In this document: piece after piece, positions 27,136-35,100 of the stretch
Numbering within the stretch: the stretch's first letter is position 1
How the letters are laid out: each line of letters begins with the position of its first letter
NCBI RefSeq assembly: GCF_028368975.1
Contig: NZ_JAQNDM010000002.1
Location: forward strand, 2,552,007-2,616,006
Length of the DNA: 64,000 bases
Source: Stigmatella ashevillena
GTDB taxonomy: Bacteria > Myxococcota > Myxococcia > Myxococcales > Myxococcaceae
Reading direction: 5' to 3'
The notes under the pieces: model-generated
Seen by the model: only the letters and a program-made list of their open reading frames with translations
The model's database searches: none
Told to the model about the DNA's origin: nothing
Program-made: the position numbers and the translations under genes

Positions 27136-28296
27136 TCACATCGGGGGCGCGCAGAACTGCTCGTAGTCGATGAGCTCTACCTGAGCCCCTTCGCGGCAGA
27201 CCGGGCACGCCGGGTCACGCCGGAGCTTCAACTGCTGGAAGCGCGTTTCCAAGGCATCGAAGTTGAGCAGCCGCCCCACGAGCGGCTCGCCCACCCCCAA
27301 GATGAGCTTGAGGGCCTCGGTGGCCTGGAGCAGGCCGATGATGCCGGGAAGCACCCCGAGCACCCCCGCTTCGGCGCACGAAGGCGCCAGATCGGGCGGA
27401 GGGGGACGCGGGTACAGGCAGCGGTAGCAAGGCCCCTTGCCCGGAACGAACGACGTCACCTGCCCTTCGAACCGGTAGATGGATCCGTGAATGTTCGGCT
27501 TGCCCAACATCACGCACGCATCGTTGAGCAGGTAGCGGGTGGGAAAGTTGTCTCCGCCATCCAGCACCATCTCGAAGGGCTCGAGGATGCGCAGGACATT
27601 CTCGGACGTCAGCCGTTCCTGGAAGGGAATGACCTTCACGTCCGGGTTGAGGGACCGGATGGCCTCCAGGGCGCTCTCGGTCTTCGGCTGGCCGGCCCGC
27701 TCGCGGGTGTGGATGACCTGACGCTGGAGATTGGAGAGGTCCACCACATCCATGTCGATGATGCCGAGCGTCCCCACGCCGGCCGCCGCCAGATAGAGGG
27801 CCGCTGGGGAGCCCAGTCCGCCGACCCCCATGAGCAGCACCTTCGCCTTCAAGAGGCGGGCCTGCCCCTCTTCCCCCACCTCGGGAATGGCCAGGTGCCG
27901 CCGGTAGCGCTCCTTCTGCTCGGCGGACAGCACGACCGGCTTCTCCACCGGAAAGGACGCGTCATGCCAGCGGCTGTAGCCTCCCGCCATCGAAGAGACG
28001 TGCGTGTAGCCCATGTCCTGCAACGTCTTGGCGGCGAGCGCCGACCGGGTGCCTCCCGCGCAATAGAGCACGAGCTCCTCGTCGCGGCCGACCTTCTCCT
28101 CGATGCGCAGTTCCAGGAAGCCGCGCGGGATGGAGAGGGCGCCCGGCAAGCGCCCGGCGGCGTACTCGTCCCCTTCCCGCACGTCGATGAGCTTGAAGGC
28201 GCGCCTCGCGTCGAGCTGCTGCTTGACGCTCTCGACCTGCACCTCGCGGATCTCCTTCTTCGTGCTGGACAGGATGTCTCGAAATGAGGGCGCCAT
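27136..28296 (-). CDS. moeB: Rhodanese-E1 fusion (MoeB/ThiF-type adenylyltransferase)
   Basis: This 386-aa enzyme has a rhodanese domain first (residues about 20-115, active Cys79 in the CAGGTRS loop) and an E1-like adenylyltransferase second. The second domain has GVGGLGSPAALYLA at 157-170, GDNFPTRYLLND, the zinc pairs CYRC and CPVC, and a candidate catalytic cysteine in PSCAEAG. It should activate the C-terminus of a sulfur-carrier protein (MoaD or ThiS type) and hand on sulfur, for molybdopterin, thiamine or another thio-pathway. Most fusions place rhodanese last, so the order is reversed here. The start at 28296 gives the natural N-terminus. It is an odd guest in the glycan block. Confidence 0.88.
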   Translation of the reverse strand: MAPSFRDILSSTKKEIREVQVESVKQQLDARRAFKLIDVREGDEYAAGRLPGALSIPRGFLELRIEEKVGRDEELVLYCAGGTRSALAAKTLQDMGYTHVSSMAGGYSRWHDASFPVEKPVVLSAEQKERYRRHLAIPEVGEEGQARLLKAKVLLMGVGGLGSPAALYLAAAGVGTLGIIDMDVVDLSNLQRQVIHTRERAGQPKTESALEAIRSLNPDVKVIPFQERLTSENVLRILEPFEMVLDGGDNFPTRYLLNDACVMLGKPNIHGSIYRFEGQVTSFVPGKGPCYRCLYPRPPPPDLAPSCAEAGVLGVLPGIIGLLQATEALKLILGVGEPLVGRLLNFDALETRFQQLKLRRDPACPVCREGAQVELIDYEQFCAPPM

Positions 28297-28313
28297 GGAC
28301 CGTCCTTCTCTCT

Positions 28314-30206
28314 TCACGGAAACCGATAGACCGTGTACCGCGCATCCCGGTGGACGAGCTCTCCTCCCAGCACTTCGGTCACGAACCTGTGCCTCGGAGG
28401 GTAGAAATAGTGCGAGACATACCACCGGAAGTGGTGCTCCTTCAGGTAGGCGCGCATCTGCGCCTGCTCTTCGGGAGTGATGGGCCCCACGAGCCCATCG
28501 AACGCCTCCAAGGCCCGGAAGAGCCGCAGCTTCTGAAGCTCCGCCTCCCGGACCGGCGTCCGGGAGAGCCTCGCGAAGGAGACGGGCTTGCCGTGCACGA
28601 CCTGCTCCCACTGGCCCAGGACATTGTCCGTGAAGACCGCCGCCGGGGCAGGCGCGGTGCGAATCTCCTCGAACACGGGAGGCAGCGTGGGCAGGGGCAC
28701 CATGTTCATGGGCCGGTTGCGGTACTCGAGGTTCGGAACCAGCGCGGTGAGCAGCGCCACCCCCACCCCCAGCCGCACCTCCCTCCGCGCTGCCAGCGCT
28801 CCCAGGTGCGCCGCGGCAAACGCCACCAGCACCGACAGCGACAGCGTGGTGAGCAACTCGAAGCGGACGGGCATCCCGCCCTGCTTGAAGAGCGGCACCA
28901 CGTGCTTGAAGACCACGTAGGGCATGGGCACCTGGACCTTCAGCTCGCGGTTGAACGAGGTGAACGGCTCCAGGAGGGACATCACGGTGAGGTAGCCCAG
29001 CAGCACCAAAACATCCCGCCGCCAGACCCGCTGACGCCAGCCCGGCAGCACCGCCCCAACCACCAGCAGGGCGAGCAGCAGCACGGACACGGGGTGCTGA
29101 CTCACCCCGCCCATCGAGAGCACCGTCCCCATCGACAGCACGGCGAACCCCACGCCCAACCCCGCCCAGCGCCGACCCTCCGGCACACCCCGCCAGAGCG
29201 CGAAAGCAGCAAGCCCCAGCGTCAGGAAGCCCAGGAACGTACCCGCCTCTTCGGCATTGCCCGCCATCTTCTCGCGCAACAACCCGCCCACGAGCGCACG
29301 CGCCTGGGCAGGCGCCGCCTCGAACCATGCCGACAGGGGATCCGGCAGGAAGAAGGCATACAGGTCGGTGAAGTAATCCGAGTCTCCATGGTGGCCCCCA
29401 ATGGGGGCAGGATGGAGGTGGGCCAGGAGCGGAAGGATGGGCGGCACACAGGCGATCCCCGCCGCCGCGGCAGCCCACCCGGCCCGGCGCAACAGCGGGT
29501 CTCTCAGCGAATCGAGCGACAGCAGGGGCCCCCGGCGCCAACGCTCGGCGACGATCCACGCGAAGGACAGCAGCGCGATGTAGAGCAGGTAATAGTAGTC
29601 ACACAGCAGCACGTAGAGCGCACCCAGCGCCAGGCCCACCAACCACCGGCGCTTGCCCTCGTCCAGCCACCGGAAGAAGCACCACAGGTAGAACGGAATC
29701 CCCTCCAGCGCCGAGAGGTTGAGGTGCGCATTCGCGTGGCTGAGGTGATACCGCGAGAAGTCGAAGGCACAGGCCCCCGCGACCGCCGCCGCCGCCGCCA
29801 GCCCCGGGCTGAACCCCGCCCGCCGCAGCAAGTCGTTCAACAACAGCCAGGCCGTGTAGCCCGTCAGGACGAACGTGCCGAAGATGACGAGGTTGTAGGC
29901 CACCTCCGGCCCCATGAAGGGCAGGAGCACCACCCCCCATCCCGTCTTGGCGGGGGACAAGGTGTGCCAGTAGAGCTCGGCCCCCAGCGGCCAGTGCAGC
30001 ACCGGCGAGAAGAAGGGATTCTGGGGGTCCACCCACGCCGCCTGGCGCATCCACCAGAAGTGCCACATGTTCATGAAGCCGTCCTCGCGGCCTCCCAGGA
30101 CAAAACCCTGGAGGTGGCTCAGCAGCGGCCAGGTATGGACGGCGGACAGCAGCGTGAATGCGAGCAGGACGAGCGGATGAAGCACCCGCCGCGAGAGAAG
30201 AGGCAT
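28314..30206 (-). CDS. Polytopic membrane protein, GT-C-like
   Basis: The 630-aa product has roughly a dozen hydrophobic helices and a first periplasmic loop with HWPLGAELYWHTLSPAKTG and GGREDGFMNMWHFWW. Acidic residues in that loop (for example RED) resemble the DD/ED pair of GT-C lipid-sugar transferases. The C-terminal 120 residues form a soluble periplasmic-looking domain with SFARLSRTPVREAELQKL. GT-C enzymes use polyprenyl-phosphate sugars at the outer face of the inner membrane. Its place between the MoeB-like and methyltransferase genes, in a glycan block, supports a role in glycan or lipid modification. Assignment rests on topology and context; the family is not certain. Confidence 0.65.
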   Translation of the reverse strand: MPLLSRRVLHPLVLLAFTLLSAVHTWPLLSHLQGFVLGGREDGFMNMWHFWWMRQAAWVDPQNPFFSPVLHWPLGAELYWHTLSPAKTGWGVVLLPFMGPEVAYNLVIFGTFVLTGYTAWLLLNDLLRRAGFSPGLAAAAAVAGACAFDFSRYHLSHANAHLNLSALEGIPFYLWCFFRWLDEGKRRWLVGLALGALYVLLCDYYYLLYIALLSFAWIVAERWRRGPLLSLDSLRDPLLRRAGWAAAAAGIACVPPILPLLAHLHPAPIGGHHGDSDYFTDLYAFFLPDPLSAWFEAAPAQARALVGGLLREKMAGNAEEAGTFLGFLTLGLAAFALWRGVPEGRRWAGLGVGFAVLSMGTVLSMGGVSQHPVSVLLLALLVVGAVLPGWRQRVWRRDVLVLLGYLTVMSLLEPFTSFNRELKVQVPMPYVVFKHVVPLFKQGGMPVRFELLTTLSLSVLVAFAAAHLGALAARREVRLGVGVALLTALVPNLEYRNRPMNMVPLPTLPPVFEEIRTAPAPAAVFTDNVLGQWEQVVHGKPVSFARLSRTPVREAELQKLRLFRALEAFDGLVGPITPEEQAQMRAYLKEHHFRWYVSHYFYPPRHRFVTEVLGGELVHRDARYTVYRFP

Positions 30207-31153: not shown

Positions 31154-31320
31154 TCGGGCCAGCAACGTAGTCCCAACAAAGCAGGAACCTCAATCTCTCA
31201 GAATGCCGGAGCCTCCTCGGGGGCCTTCCGCCCGCTTGCGCTCCAGACAATGGACCGCGAGCCAGAAATCGGTGTAGCGAAGAGTCTGTTATCCCCAGTT
31301 GCCCGTATATCTCCCGCCAC

Positions 31321-34300
31321 ATGCCTTCCTTGACCGCACCCATGACCTCCTCCAGCCCCGCGTTGACCCTGGGCCTCCCTGGGTTCACTTTCGAGGACCT
31401 TTATCGTCCACGGGGGCTGCGTCGGCTCGCGGAGCGCTTCGATACCTGGCTGGCCGAGCGTGAGCCCGAGCTGCGCCAGGCCTTCGACGCCTACCGCGCC
31501 TCCGGCGGAAAGAGCGTCTCGGGCCCCGCCGAGTCCGAGCTCCTCATCCGCGTCTCCCGCCACGTCGGCGCCTTTCTGGCCCGCCTCTTCAACATCGACA
31601 CGGAGACCGAGGGCCTGGCCCGCCGTCTGACGGGGGAGCTGCCCCTGTTCGACTTCAAGCGCGACTTCATCACCCGCCGGGTCTTCAAGAAGGGTGCCCC
31701 GGACCGCCCGACCCTCGCGGAGTACCCCTCGCTGGATGCCCGGATGCGGCTGCTGCTCCAGTTGGGCTTTCCGGAGACCGTGGCGCAGGGAGACCTGGAG
31801 CGGGGACTGGCCGAGTCCATTCTCACGCTGATGGATCTGGAGCGCGTCTTCTCGAAAGCCCTGCCCACCGCGCGGCAGGCCCACGAACCCGAACTGCGGG
31901 CCCGGTGGGCCTCGCTGCGGGCCGCGCTCGTGTCCACGCCCGAGGGGACAGCCGCCTTCGGCTCCAGCCTCGTCACCCAGGGAGAAGACGCGGCGGAGCT
32001 TCAGGCCGTGCGCGCCCTGCTCTCGCTGGCGGACCGCTGGACGTACGCGCGCGCGCTGCACCCGGAACTCAAAGAGCTGTTTCACCTCTGGCCCACGCAC
32101 CGCATCCCCAAGCCCCTCGTCTTCGACCAGCTCGTCTCGCTGCACCGGCCCGATCCCCAGCTTCCCGAGATCGCCGAGAGCCCCGAGCACCACCTGCGCC
32201 ACCGGGATGGGTTCAAGCTCACCGATCGCCGCGGCACCCAACGCGACGTGATGAACGAGGTGGACTACTGCGTCATCTGCCACGAGCGCGAGAAGGACTC
32301 CTGCTCCAAGGGCTTCAAGGCGAAGGACCCGGTGGCCGAGGGGCACACCTACAAGAAGAACCCGCTGGGCATTCCCCTCACTGGCTGTCCTCTGGACGAG
32401 CGCATCTCCGAGGTCCACGCCCTCAAGCGTGAAGGACTCTCGGTCGGAGCGCTGGCCATGGTGATGCTGGACAACCCCATGTGCCCGGGCACCGGTCACC
32501 GCATCTGCAATGACTGCATGAAGGCATGCATCTTCCAGAAGCAGGAGCCGGTGAACATCCCCCTGGCGGAGACCTCGACCCTCACGGACGTGCTGGAGCT
32601 GCCCTGGGGATTCGAAATCTACGGGCTCCTGTCGCGGTGGAATCCGATCAACGTCCGAAGGCCGTATGCGCTGCCCTACATCGGCCGCAACGCGCTGGTG
32701 GTGGGCCTGGGCCCTGCGGGCTACACGCTGGCGCACTACCTGCTCAACGAGGGCTTCGGCGTCACCGGCGTGGACGGCCTGAAGATCGAGCCCTTCCCCG
32801 ATGAGCTGGTGGGCCGCAACGGCAAGACGCTCCAGCCCATCCGGGACTGGCGGGCCCTCACCCGCGAGTTGGACGAGCGGGTGCTGGAGGGCTTCGGCGG
32901 GGTGTCCGAGTACGGGATCACCGTGCGCTGGGACAAAAACTTCCTCACCCTCATCCACCTGACGCTGGCCCGGCGGGAGAACCTGCACATCTACGGCGGC
33001 GTGCGCTTCGGTGGCACCCTCACCATCGATGATGCCTGGGCGCTGGGCTTCGACCACATCGCCATCGCCGCGGGCGCGGGCCGCCCCACCATCATCGGGA
33101 TGAAGAACAACCTCATCCGAGGCATCCGCAAGGCGAGCGACTTCCTGATGGCGCTGCAACTCACGGGCGCGTTCAAGAAGGACTCGCTGGCCAACCTCCA
33201 GGTGCAGCTGCCGGCCATTGTCATCGGCGGAGGCCTGACGGGCATCGACACGGCCACCGAGCTGATGGCGTACTACCCGGTGCAAGTGCAGCGCATCCTG
33301 GAGCGCCACGAGCAGCTGACCGCGGAGCTGAGCGAGGAGACCGTTCTGGCGCGGCTGGACGCGGAGGAGCGCCTCACCTACCAGACGTTCCTGGAGCACG
33401 GCCGCGCGGTGCGCGCCGAGCGCGAGAAGGCGCTCGCGGAAGGCCGGAGCCCGGACTTCATCCAGTTGGTGCGCGGCTGGGGCGGCGTGAGCCTCGTCTA
33501 CCGCCGCAGCCTCACCGAGTCCCCCGCCTACCGCCTCAACCACGAGGAGGTGGTGAAGGCGCTCGAGGAGGGCATCCGCTTCATCGAGCGGATGAGCCCC
33601 ACGGAGGCCCTGCCGGACGCGAGCGGCGCGGTGCGCGCCATCCGCTTCGAGCGCATGGTGACCCAGGACGGCAAGCTCAAGGGCAGCGGCGAGTTCTTCG
33701 AGCTGCCCGCGAAGACCGTTTGTGTGGCCGCGGGCACCTCGCCCAACGTGACCTACGAGAAGGAGTACCCGGGGACCTTCCTGCTCGACAGCAACAAGGA
33801 ATACTTCCAGGGCTTCGAGCTGGAAGAGGCCGGCACCTCCTTCGCGCTGAAGCCCGTCCCCGCCCGCGAGGACCTGGATGCCCCGGTGGGCTTCTTCACC
33901 TCGTACCAGAAGGCGGGCCGCTTCATCTCGTTCTACGGGGACAATCACCCCACCTACGCGGGCAACGTGGTGAAGGCCATGGCGAGCGCCAAGGATGGCT
34001 ATCCACAGGTGGCCCGCCTCTTCGCTTCGGAGGTCGCGGCGTTGGACTTCTCGGACGAGGTGGCCCAGGGCCAGCGCGAGGCACGGCTCTCCGCCCACTT
34101 CGCGAAGCTGGACGAGGCGCTCAGCGCCACCATCGTGGCCGTCAACCGCCTCACCCCCACCATCGTGGAGGTGGTGGTGAAGGCCCCGTTCGCCGCCAGC
34201 CACTTCGAGCCGGGACAGTTCTACCGGCTCCAGAACTTCGAGCGGCTGGCGCCCGTCGTGGACGGAACGCGGCTGACGATGGAGGGCCTTGCCCTCACCG

Positions 34301-35100
34301 GCGCCTGGGTGGACAAGGAGAAGGGGCTGATGGGGACCATCGTGCTGGAGATGGGCTCCTCCTCGCGCCTGTGCGCCGCGCTGCGGCCCGGCGAGTCCGT
34401 GGTGCTCATGGGGCCGACCGGCACGCCCACGGAGATCGCCCACAACGAGACCGTGGTGCTGGTGGGCGGCGGACTGGGCAACGCGGTGCTCTTCTCCATC
34501 GCCCGCTCGCTGAAGGCCGCGGGCTGCCGCGTCGTCTACTTCGCCGGCTACCGGCAGAAGATCGACAGCTTCAAGCAGAATGAGATCGAAGCGGGGACGG
34601 ACCAGATCATCTGGTCCGTGGATGGTGGAGATCTCATCGAGTCCCGGCGTCCGCAGGACTCCAGCTTCCGGGGCAATGTCGTCCAGGCGATGCTCGCCTA
34701 TGCACAGGGGCAACTGGGCCCCCAGCCCGTCATCTCCTTGAACGAGGTGGACCGCATCATCGCCATCGGCTCGGACCGGATGATGCGCGCGGTCCAGGAG
34801 GCCCGCCACGGCGTGCTCCAGCCCTTCCTCAAGCCCGGCCACGAGGCCATCGGCTCCATCAACTCGCCGATGCAGTGCATGATGAAGGAGATCTGCGCCC
34901 AGTGCCTCCAGAAGCACGTGGATCCCCGCACGGGCAAGGAGACTTGGGTCTTCTCCTGCTACAACCAGGACCAGAACCTGGACCAGGTGGACTTCGTCAA
35001 CCTGAACCAGCGCCTGCGCGGCAACACGGTGATGGAGAAGGTATCGGACGTCTTCCTGGCCCGGCTGCTCCAGAAGGCGCCTCAGCTCAAGCGCGTCTGA
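31321..35100 (+). CDS. Single-chain NfnB-NfnA-like flavo-iron-sulfur oxidoreductase (1259 aa)
   Basis: The chain joins three parts. Residues 1-300 are a helical domain without a recognised family. About 310-760 is a GltD/NfnB-like unit: Cys-rich YCVICHEREKDSC (C317, C320, C327), then GCPLDERISEVHALKREG and a second cluster MCPGTGHRICNDCMKAC, the FAD loop GLGPAG at 462-467 and an NAD(P) loop IVIGGGLTGID. About 930-1259 is a PyrK/NfnA-like unit with GQFYRLQNF, LVGGGLGNAV and a likely [2Fe-2S] set C1186, C1192, C1195, C1213. In Nfn complexes these two units are separate proteins that couple NADH, NADPH and ferredoxin by electron bifurcation. Here the fusion may transfer electrons between pyridine nucleotides and an unknown partner; bifurcation is not proven. 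Confidence 0.8.
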   Translation: MPSLTAPMTSSSPALTLGLPGFTFEDLYRPRGLRRLAERFDTWLAEREPELRQAFDAYRASGGKSVSGPAESELLIRVSRHVGAFLARLFNIDTETEGLARRLTGELPLFDFKRDFITRRVFKKGAPDRPTLAEYPSLDARMRLLLQLGFPETVAQGDLERGLAESILTLMDLERVFSKALPTARQAHEPELRARWASLRAALVSTPEGTAAFGSSLVTQGEDAAELQAVRALLSLADRWTYARALHPELKELFHLWPTHRIPKPLVFDQLVSLHRPDPQLPEIAESPEHHLRHRDGFKLTDRRGTQRDVMNEVDYCVICHEREKDSCSKGFKAKDPVAEGHTYKKNPLGIPLTGCPLDERISEVHALKREGLSVGALAMVMLDNPMCPGTGHRICNDCMKACIFQKQEPVNIPLAETSTLTDVLELPWGFEIYGLLSRWNPINVRRPYALPYIGRNALVVGLGPAGYTLAHYLLNEGFGVTGVDGLKIEPFPDELVGRNGKTLQPIRDWRALTRELDERVLEGFGGVSEYGITVRWDKNFLTLIHLTLARRENLHIYGGVRFGGTLTIDDAWALGFDHIAIAAGAGRPTIIGMKNNLIRGIRKASDFLMALQLTGAFKKDSLANLQVQLPAIVIGGGLTGIDTATELMAYYPVQVQRILERHEQLTAELSEETVLARLDAEERLTYQTFLEHGRAVRAEREKALAEGRSPDFIQLVRGWGGVSLVYRRSLTESPAYRLNHEEVVKALEEGIRFIERMSPTEALPDASGAVRAIRFERMVTQDGKLKGSGEFFELPAKTVCVAAGTSPNVTYEKEYPGTFLLDSNKEYFQGFELEEAGTSFALKPVPAREDLDAPVGFFTSYQKAGRFISFYGDNHPTYAGNVVKAMASAKDGYPQVARLFASEVAALDFSDEVAQGQREARLSAHFAKLDEALSATIVAVNRLTPTIVEVVVKAPFAASHFEPGQFYRLQNFERLAPVVDGTRLTMEGLALTGAWVDKEKGLMGTIVLEMGSSSRLCAALRPGESVVLMGPTGTPTEIAHNETVVLVGGGLGNAVLFSIARSLKAAGCRVVYFAGYRQKIDSFKQNEIEAGTDQIIWSVDGGDLIESRRPQDSSFRGNVVQAMLAYAQGQLGPQPVISLNEVDRIIAIGSDRMMRAVQEARHGVLQPFLKPGHEAIGSINSPMQCMMKEICAQCLQKHVDPRTGKETWVFSCYNQDQNLDQVDFVNLNQRLRGNTVMEKVSDVFLARLLQKAPQLKRV

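Follow-up and report, generated by a model that had tools for sequence, protein, structure and literature searches.

What would a protein laid out like the NADH-dependent ferredoxin:NADP oxidoreductase (Nfn), an enzyme known mainly from anaerobes, do in an apparently aerobic bacterium? The question is raised by a 64,000-nucleotide stretch of Stigmatella ashevillena DNA (the window), in which an open reading frame (ORF) of 1259 amino acids at positions 31321–35100 of the plus strand joins a GltD/NfnB-like half to a PyrK/NfnA-like half. We tentatively favour, at a strength somewhat short of probable, a soluble NADPH-oxidising flavin and iron–sulfur (Fe–S) enzyme, laid out like Nfn, that supplies aerobic bacteria with reduced ferredoxin. 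This reading draws on conserved sites, the predicted fold, gene linkage and distribution, from which we infer the NADPH donor, the ferredoxin product and its clients.

Layout of the 1259-residue chain

We found that the guanine plus cytosine (GC) content of the ORF at codon positions 1, 2 and 3 is 0.669, 0.438 and 0.925, and that the ratio of nonsynonymous to synonymous substitution rates (dN/dS) is 0.10–0.22 in comparisons with four relatives (three congeneric and one from the same family, with a fifth, L008, left out). Together, these values establish it as a real gene under purifying selection. The antisense ORF of 1239 amino acids that overlaps it (31198–34917, minus strand) is taken as a high-GC by-product. 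The plausible genes flanking it on both sides lie on the minus strand, and the gene looks monocistronic at this locus of the 10.95-Mb genome. Among the matches listed, the closest named ones come from Myxococcus and Corallococcus (82–84% identity).

The initial annotation, made from the sequence alone, had described a fused chain with about 300 extra N-terminal residues, as the ORF, the NCBIfam matches and the PDB matches confirm. Pyr_redox_2 is the sole Pfam domain above its cut-off. The best NCBIfam model, NF005128/PRK06567.1 (1031 positions), has the same domain order and is followed by fused GltD/PyrK-type models, but the window protein is about 230 residues longer and reaches 595.6 bits against a curated cut-off of 1072. 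Because the 66 matching genomes of the G585 class (introduced below) do not exceed that cut-off either, automatic annotation with this model will miss the family. Both NCBIfam and PDB sequence searches place the GltD/NfnB-like half first and the PyrK/NfnA-like half second, with PDB matches to the NfnI subunits 5jca_S (E = 9.3e-15, residues 938–1103) and 5jca_L (E = 9.5e-14) and to PyrK 1ep3_B (E = 9.4e-7).

The fusion itself, which the initial annotation had set apart from the usual separate subunits, is not a novelty. Passages of Liang et al. 2019 (PMC6405883) describe fused Nfn homologues, including a 'Pattern C' (Mobiluncus curtisii type) in which the a-FAD/NAD/[2Fe-2S] part is C-terminal, and NCBIfam already holds the 1031-position model. 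Compared by description, Pattern C and the window protein are both single chains with the GltD-like part first and the NfnA-like part last. NCBIfam PRK12779, which matches the window protein at 100.9 bits, is at a guess of the Pattern C kind; none of the matches listed (30 of 36 plasmid records) was labelled Pattern C.

The features of the chain, all on the plus strand, are given below; conservation counts are over 122 aligned sequences (rows), the window protein included.

31321–35100, plus: single-chain Nfn-like oxidoreductase, 1259 amino acids, ATG start (ORF list, NCBIfam, codon statistics)
31363–32091, plus: N-terminal all-alpha domain, about residues 15–257 (no Pfam match, no clear PDB fold match)
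32269–32388, plus: first [4Fe-4S] motif, C317-x2-C320-x7-C328-x27-C356, with an insert relative to NfnB (Cys in 122/122 rows)
32506–32571, plus: second [4Fe-4S] motif, C396-x2-C399-x3-C403 with E417, aligning with the NfnB motif that ends in ER (invariant in 122/122 rows)
32683–34035, plus: NfnB/GltD-like FAD and NADP domains, about residues 455–905, with FAD loop 462–467, NADP loop 636–640 and NADP Arg728 (Pfam, PDB, alignment, Foldseek, VIA)
32779–32892, plus: family insertion 1, about residues 487–524 (about 40), between FAD strand 2 and the GGV motif (alignment)
33262–33480, plus: family insertion 2, 60–70 residues within about 648–720, modelled as long helices, before the VYRR NADP motif (alignment, model)
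34108–35097, plus: NfnA/PyrK-like half, about residues 930–1259 (PDB sequence, alignment, Foldseek)
34282–34299, plus: EGLALT (988–993), replacing the NfnA FAD motif ERIPLT (alignment)
34465–34482, plus: GGGLGN nucleotide loop (1049–1054), GGGxGN in 112/122 rows
34876–34959, plus: [2Fe-2S]-type motif, C1186-x5-C1192-x2-C1195-x17-C1213 (Cys in 121/121 rows reaching the motif)

Consistent with the sequence matches, an AlphaFold2 model of residues 60–1259 (62 sequences; pLDDT 89.6, pTM 0.89) had Nfn/Xfn-type chains as its six best Foldseek matches in the PDB. TM scores on the target for the GltD-like half were 0.82 with Xfn 5vj7_A, 0.79 with NfnI 5jfc_L and 0.74 with GltD 6s6s_E, and those for the C-terminal half were 0.87 with 5jca_S, 0.86 with 4ylf_A and 0.77 with PyrK 5ksw_B (PyrK range 0.75–0.77). 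VIA gave the GltD-like half a Z of 28.3 with 5jfc_L (2.5 Å, 444 residues) and 26.6 with GltD 7mfm_I (2.7 Å, 440 residues), and tied the C-terminal half between PyrK 5ksw_B (Z 14.2) and NfnA 4yry_C (Z 13.9). The N-terminal 340 residues, modelled alone, formed a helical domain (pLDDT 86.9) without a Pfam match or a clear fold match (best Foldseek E-value against the PDB 1.2, best VIA Z 4.6), which does not imply a new fold.

The window protein thus has in common with NfnAB/NfnSL (Pyrococcus furiosus NfnI 5jca/5jfc, Thermotoga maritima 4ylf and Xfn/NfnII 5vj7) both halves, the FAD/NADP domain, an FNR-like half and, by alignment, two [4Fe-4S] clusters held by seven Cys and a Glu. It differs in being one chain, L then S, with an N-terminal helical domain and two insertions in L; in having Cys for Asp, and an extra residue, at the [2Fe-2S] cluster; in lacking the FAD Arg in S; and in falling in a separate clade. 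Judged from these comparisons it is Nfn-like in layout rather than an established Nfn.

Cofactor sites and family placement

The architecture behind the Nfn assignment of the initial annotation stands in sequence, [4Fe-4S] ligands and fold, but the Asp ligand and the FAD Arg do not. All eight [4Fe-4S] ligand positions (seven Cys and Glu417) align with NfnB, GltD and their relatives, and are invariant in 122/122 rows. Glu417 aligns with the Glu of the NfnB ER pair; on our reading this is the Glu that a passage of PMC9503767 names as a ligand of the Nfn proximal cluster. Both clusters had been noticed earlier, with residues that needed correction: the first, given as C317–C327, comprises C317, C320, C328 and C356, and in the second, near MCPGTGHRICNDCMKAC, the first Cys is unconserved in alignment A1 and the ligand candidates are C396, C399, C403 and E417. 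The FAD loop and the four C-terminal Cys are as first described, and NADP Arg728 is conserved in 120/122 rows.

The Arg at the position of residue 989 is absent in 122/122 rows; this is the NfnA flavin-site Arg, which we take to contact the FAD phosphate through the ERIPLT motif. Arg1016 was rejected as a general stand-in for it, as Asp is the commonest residue there in probable Alphaproteobacteria. Cys1186, a Cys in 121/121 rows, occupies the position of the [2Fe-2S] Asp ligand of Nfn, whose NfnA motif is given as DGTGMCGxC in part of PMC6405883, and the alignment puts the spacing one residue longer. The different electron partner that the initial annotation had expected is hinted at on the C-terminal side.

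A true electron-bifurcating Nfn acting mainly as a transhydrogenase, which would balance NADH, NADPH and ferredoxin while running toward NADPH, would account for the layout, the fold and the GGGxGN loop of the C-terminal half in 112/122 rows, but not for the absence of the NfnA Asp ligand and the FAD Arg from every row compared. We consider it unlikely; gene content, taken up below, bears on it as well.

In the C-terminal half, the nucleotide loop deviates in 10/122 rows, strongly in six, while all four Cys stay. Strong deviants include the copy on the A. caldus plasmid and those of three 0.9–1.5-Mb genomes in one order (L148, L255 and L256), 3/3 of which keep the gene with this loop missing or degenerate. 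Together with the loss of the FAD Arg in 122/122 rows, this pattern could point to a non-bifurcating NADPH-dependent reductase whose NAD and flavin sites are decaying and whose C-terminal [2Fe-2S] cluster is the exit, feeding a protein partner directly; P. furiosus NfnII has NAD-independent activity, according to a passage of PMC6405883. Such a reductase sits poorly with GGGxGN in 112/122 rows and with an S-half fold kept at high model confidence, and we hold it to be quite improbable.

In trees of both halves, the protein family formed one clade with support of 100 that included none of the Nfn and GltD/PyrK rows sampled. When long rows were removed (four from the L tree and three from the S tree), Nfn made up one side of a branch with support of 83 in the L half and 50 in the S half, in unrooted trees. 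These trees, of the kind suggested in the initial annotation, make the family a third clade beside Nfn and GltD/PyrK without fixing the order of the three. PyrK of DHODB shares the FNR-like half, a four-Cys [2Fe-2S] motif and the tied VIA score, but its spacing is C-x4-C-x2-C against C-x5-C-x2-C here (the one-residue difference first noted holds), the window protein is fused to an NfnB-like half, and PyrK-like rows form a separate clade. GltD and its relatives (AegA, YgfT) have the FAD/NADP half and the [4Fe-4S] motifs in common with it and also form a separate clade. The first alignment comprised the window and 68 of 80 loci, the other 12 being excluded because the ORF picker did not keep the gene (it picked antisense ORFs in several); alignments A2 and A3 held 62 and 58 of 63 non-redundant rows.

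With Cys in every row and the Glu ligand kept, the family is a natural test of the purpose of the Nfn Asp ligand; the ligand mutation described in PMC9503767 concerns the Glu ligand only. In that mutant, NfnL E126C, the half reactions run uncoupled and full three-substrate activity is unchanged. Because the Asp is the other site-differentiated ligand of Nfn and the family has Cys there, coupling may be looser or differently tuned. Unusual about the family are its standing as a third clade, Cys for the [2Fe-2S] Asp, loss of the flavin-site Arg and wide spread in oxidase-bearing genomes.

Distribution and gene neighbourhoods

A pattern scan of one-per-species genomes yielded at least 562 confirmed stretches, among which one gene can appear twice; 80 loci were retained. 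These are titled Myxococcota, Acidobacteriota, Planctomycetota, Nitrospirota, Chlorobiota/Ignavibacteria, Pseudomonadota (mostly Methylococcales), Armatimonadetes and Actinomycetota (Acidimicrobiia); many come from metagenome-assembled genomes (MAGs), some phyla are represented by one MAG, and single labels may be wrong. The gene was found in 103/193 Myxococcota genomes, in 17/398 genomes of the phylum of a Methylomonas MAG and in 66/289 genomes of the class of genome G585. This class is probably Alphaproteobacteria, as the alphaproteobacterial model is the only one that 2/2 haem A synthases examined match, at scores under its cut-off. The first impression of an aerobic host is supported by haem-copper oxidase (PF00115) in 49/50 carriers tested, a count over 50 of the 80 loci without a matched background.

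Survey sections of PMC6085437 and PMC6405883 name a single aerobe with Nfn and describe bifurcating enzymes, Fix excepted, as nearly absent from aerobic cells. A literature search returned nothing on PRK06567, on the double annotation phrase or on 'NADH-dependent ferredoxin NADP' with Myxococcus, and the papers listed on Nfn and electron bifurcation made no mention of myxobacteria. A large and conserved family of Nfn-like enzymes, spread over about eight phylum-level groups of oxidase-bearing bacteria and retained even where the recorded genome size is 0.9–1.5 Mb, would revise this picture and could supply reduced ferredoxin in many aerobes.

Within Myxococcota, the classical NfnA model exceeded its cut-off in 4/103 carriers vs 36/90 non-carriers (5/103 vs 43/90 for all classical NfnA matches at E 1e-30), and the 2-oxoacid:acceptor oxidoreductase TIGR03710 was present in 22/103 vs 69/90. 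That few carriers have either favours a ferredoxin-making role. The transhydrogenase described above would gain from the 51/103 carriers, the window's genome included, that have no PNTB match, but PNTB is as common in carriers (52/103) as in non-carriers (47/90), and 81/103 carriers are without TIGR03710, one possible source of the ferredoxin needed for the NADPH-forming direction. A link of the family to PntAB was rejected, there being no contrast. Profile searches of the window's own genome gave no PNTB, TIGR03710 or classical Nfn match.

No operon conserved across phyla was recognised in the loci compared (the ORF picker kept the gene in 81/96); neighbours cluster within lineages, and at most loci examined the gene has no recognisable operon partner. 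On the A. caldus plasmid pTcM1 (L048, NC_010600.1, 6522–13414) the order is GntR, FrdA-like (PRK08275), 4Fe-4S, HEAT, fdxA and the gene; the directly preceding fdxA favours ferredoxin as a product. The FrdA-like and HEAT proteins there match two parts of PRK13800, a possible electron partner complex.

In the G585 class, flanks were compared at 44 loci of the 66 matching genomes with a query set from L153, one of the eight linked loci. Genes for sulfur assimilation (cys) or sirohaem synthase were close in 8/44 loci, directly upstream on the same strand in seven, and haem A synthase was near the gene in 10/44. Chance expectation is about 0.34 per single-copy gene, and 0 of 1,000,000 simulated sets, with one or two copies and relatedness ignored, reached eight. 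The arrangements cysI-cysG-cysH-cysD-cysNC-gene, cysH-cysD-cysNC-gene, cysI-cysG-gene and cysI-cysH-gene could have arisen by gene loss from a single ancestral order, ctaA being divergent. Elsewhere, cys genes lie near the gene in L151 and L160, and a NirA/sulfite reductase (SiR)-like gene adjoins it divergently in L083, a Planctomycetota MAG. A CysJ-like gene (E 1e-60) was found in 4/68 carriers, in 0/12 non-carriers of the G585 class and in 0/10 cys-linked genomes (eight of this class and those of L151 and L160).

The position directly downstream of cys/sirohaem genes in 7/44 loci, the lack of cysJ in 10/10 linked genomes and the SiR-like neighbour in L083 would all suit a dedicated diaphorase of assimilatory SiR that replaces CysJ. 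But CysJ and NIR_SIR (PF01077) matches lie about 0.5 kb apart on one strand in the genome of the window itself, 45/103 Myxococcota carriers have no NIR_SIR match, and the gene is kept in the three genomes of 0.9–1.5 Mb, a count that leaves their SiR content aside. For comparison, NIR_SIR was present in 58/103 Myxococcota carriers vs 43/90 non-carriers, and CysJ in 49/103 vs 4/90. We regard a dedicated CysJ replacement as the least probable of the readings considered here, and a sulfite-reductase role in the window's organism as unlikely; as a general role, electron donation to SiR was rejected for Myxococcota by profile.

Proposed electron path and its clients

In the favoured reading, the conserved sites suggest that NADPH would reduce the FAD of the GltD-like half. 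By analogy with Nfn, electrons would then reach ferredoxin one at a time by way of the Cys3Glu and Cys4 [4Fe-4S] clusters, and a second electron would leave via the C-terminal half, with its altered flavin site, where the all-Cys [2Fe-2S] cluster would hand it to NAD+ or a different acceptor. In the probable Alphaproteobacteria the reduced ferredoxin would serve haem A synthase and sulfite reductase, and in Myxococcota other clients. More speculatively, the N-terminal helical domain may dock ferredoxin or a client.

Such clients have precedents. PMC13188885 describes an assay of the ferredoxin-dependent SiR SPO2634 of Ruegeria pomeroyi that used ferredoxin together with the FNR SPO2637; the locus tags suggest neighbouring genes, and a gene of the window's type may, by analogy, fill the SPO2637 slot. 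Yeast Cox15 works with ferredoxin and ferredoxin reductase, as stated in a passage of PMC7140478. A more ambitious version of the proposal, which we rate as rather unlikely, is a widespread oxygen-tolerant bifurcating enzyme of aerobes that would use NADPH to reduce a low-potential ferredoxin for sulfite reductase, haem A synthase, radical-SAM enzymes and Fe–S assembly, while the other electron would travel along the all-Cys [2Fe-2S] branch to NAD+ or some new acceptor. Such an enzyme, on an Nfn plan, would be the bacterial equivalent of the adrenodoxin reductase of mitochondria.

Several points weigh against a ferredoxin-making enzyme. Unless its oxidation is coupled, NADPH by itself is poorly suited to reducing low-potential ferredoxin. 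The linkage to cys and ctaA, absent from the window's own locus, may reflect a single ancestral arrangement that one class has retained. As 0/12 non-carriers of that class have CysJ, its absence is the rule there in any case. Given the 45/103 carriers without PF01077 and the CysJ and NIR_SIR pair in the window's genome, sulfite reduction cannot be the common role. The Myxococcota contrasts track family lines and are not phylogenetically independent, which leaves the exclusion of NfnA and TIGR03710 descriptive, and the alternative ferredoxin reducers Fpr, FprA and pyruvate:ferredoxin oxidoreductase lie outside the profile set.

Some minor observations touch the family and its surroundings. Plasmid records H23–H26 contain AsrB of anaerobic sulfite reductase, a relative of NfnA and presumably a case of an NfnA-related half feeding a sulfite reductase; a phage search gave one partial match. 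In L156 and L157, 2-oxoacid:acceptor oxidoreductase (KOR) genes adjoin the gene convergently, the alpha subunit being identified in L156. Within the window, 27136–28345 (minus strand) encodes a Rhodanese/ThiF-MoeB-like protein, identified by eye from the translation. The gene copy of G032, a 2.7-Mb genome from the same family as the window, has an in-frame TAG (L035, 5229–8951); two further genomes of that genus (2.1–2.3 Mb) have the gene free of stops.

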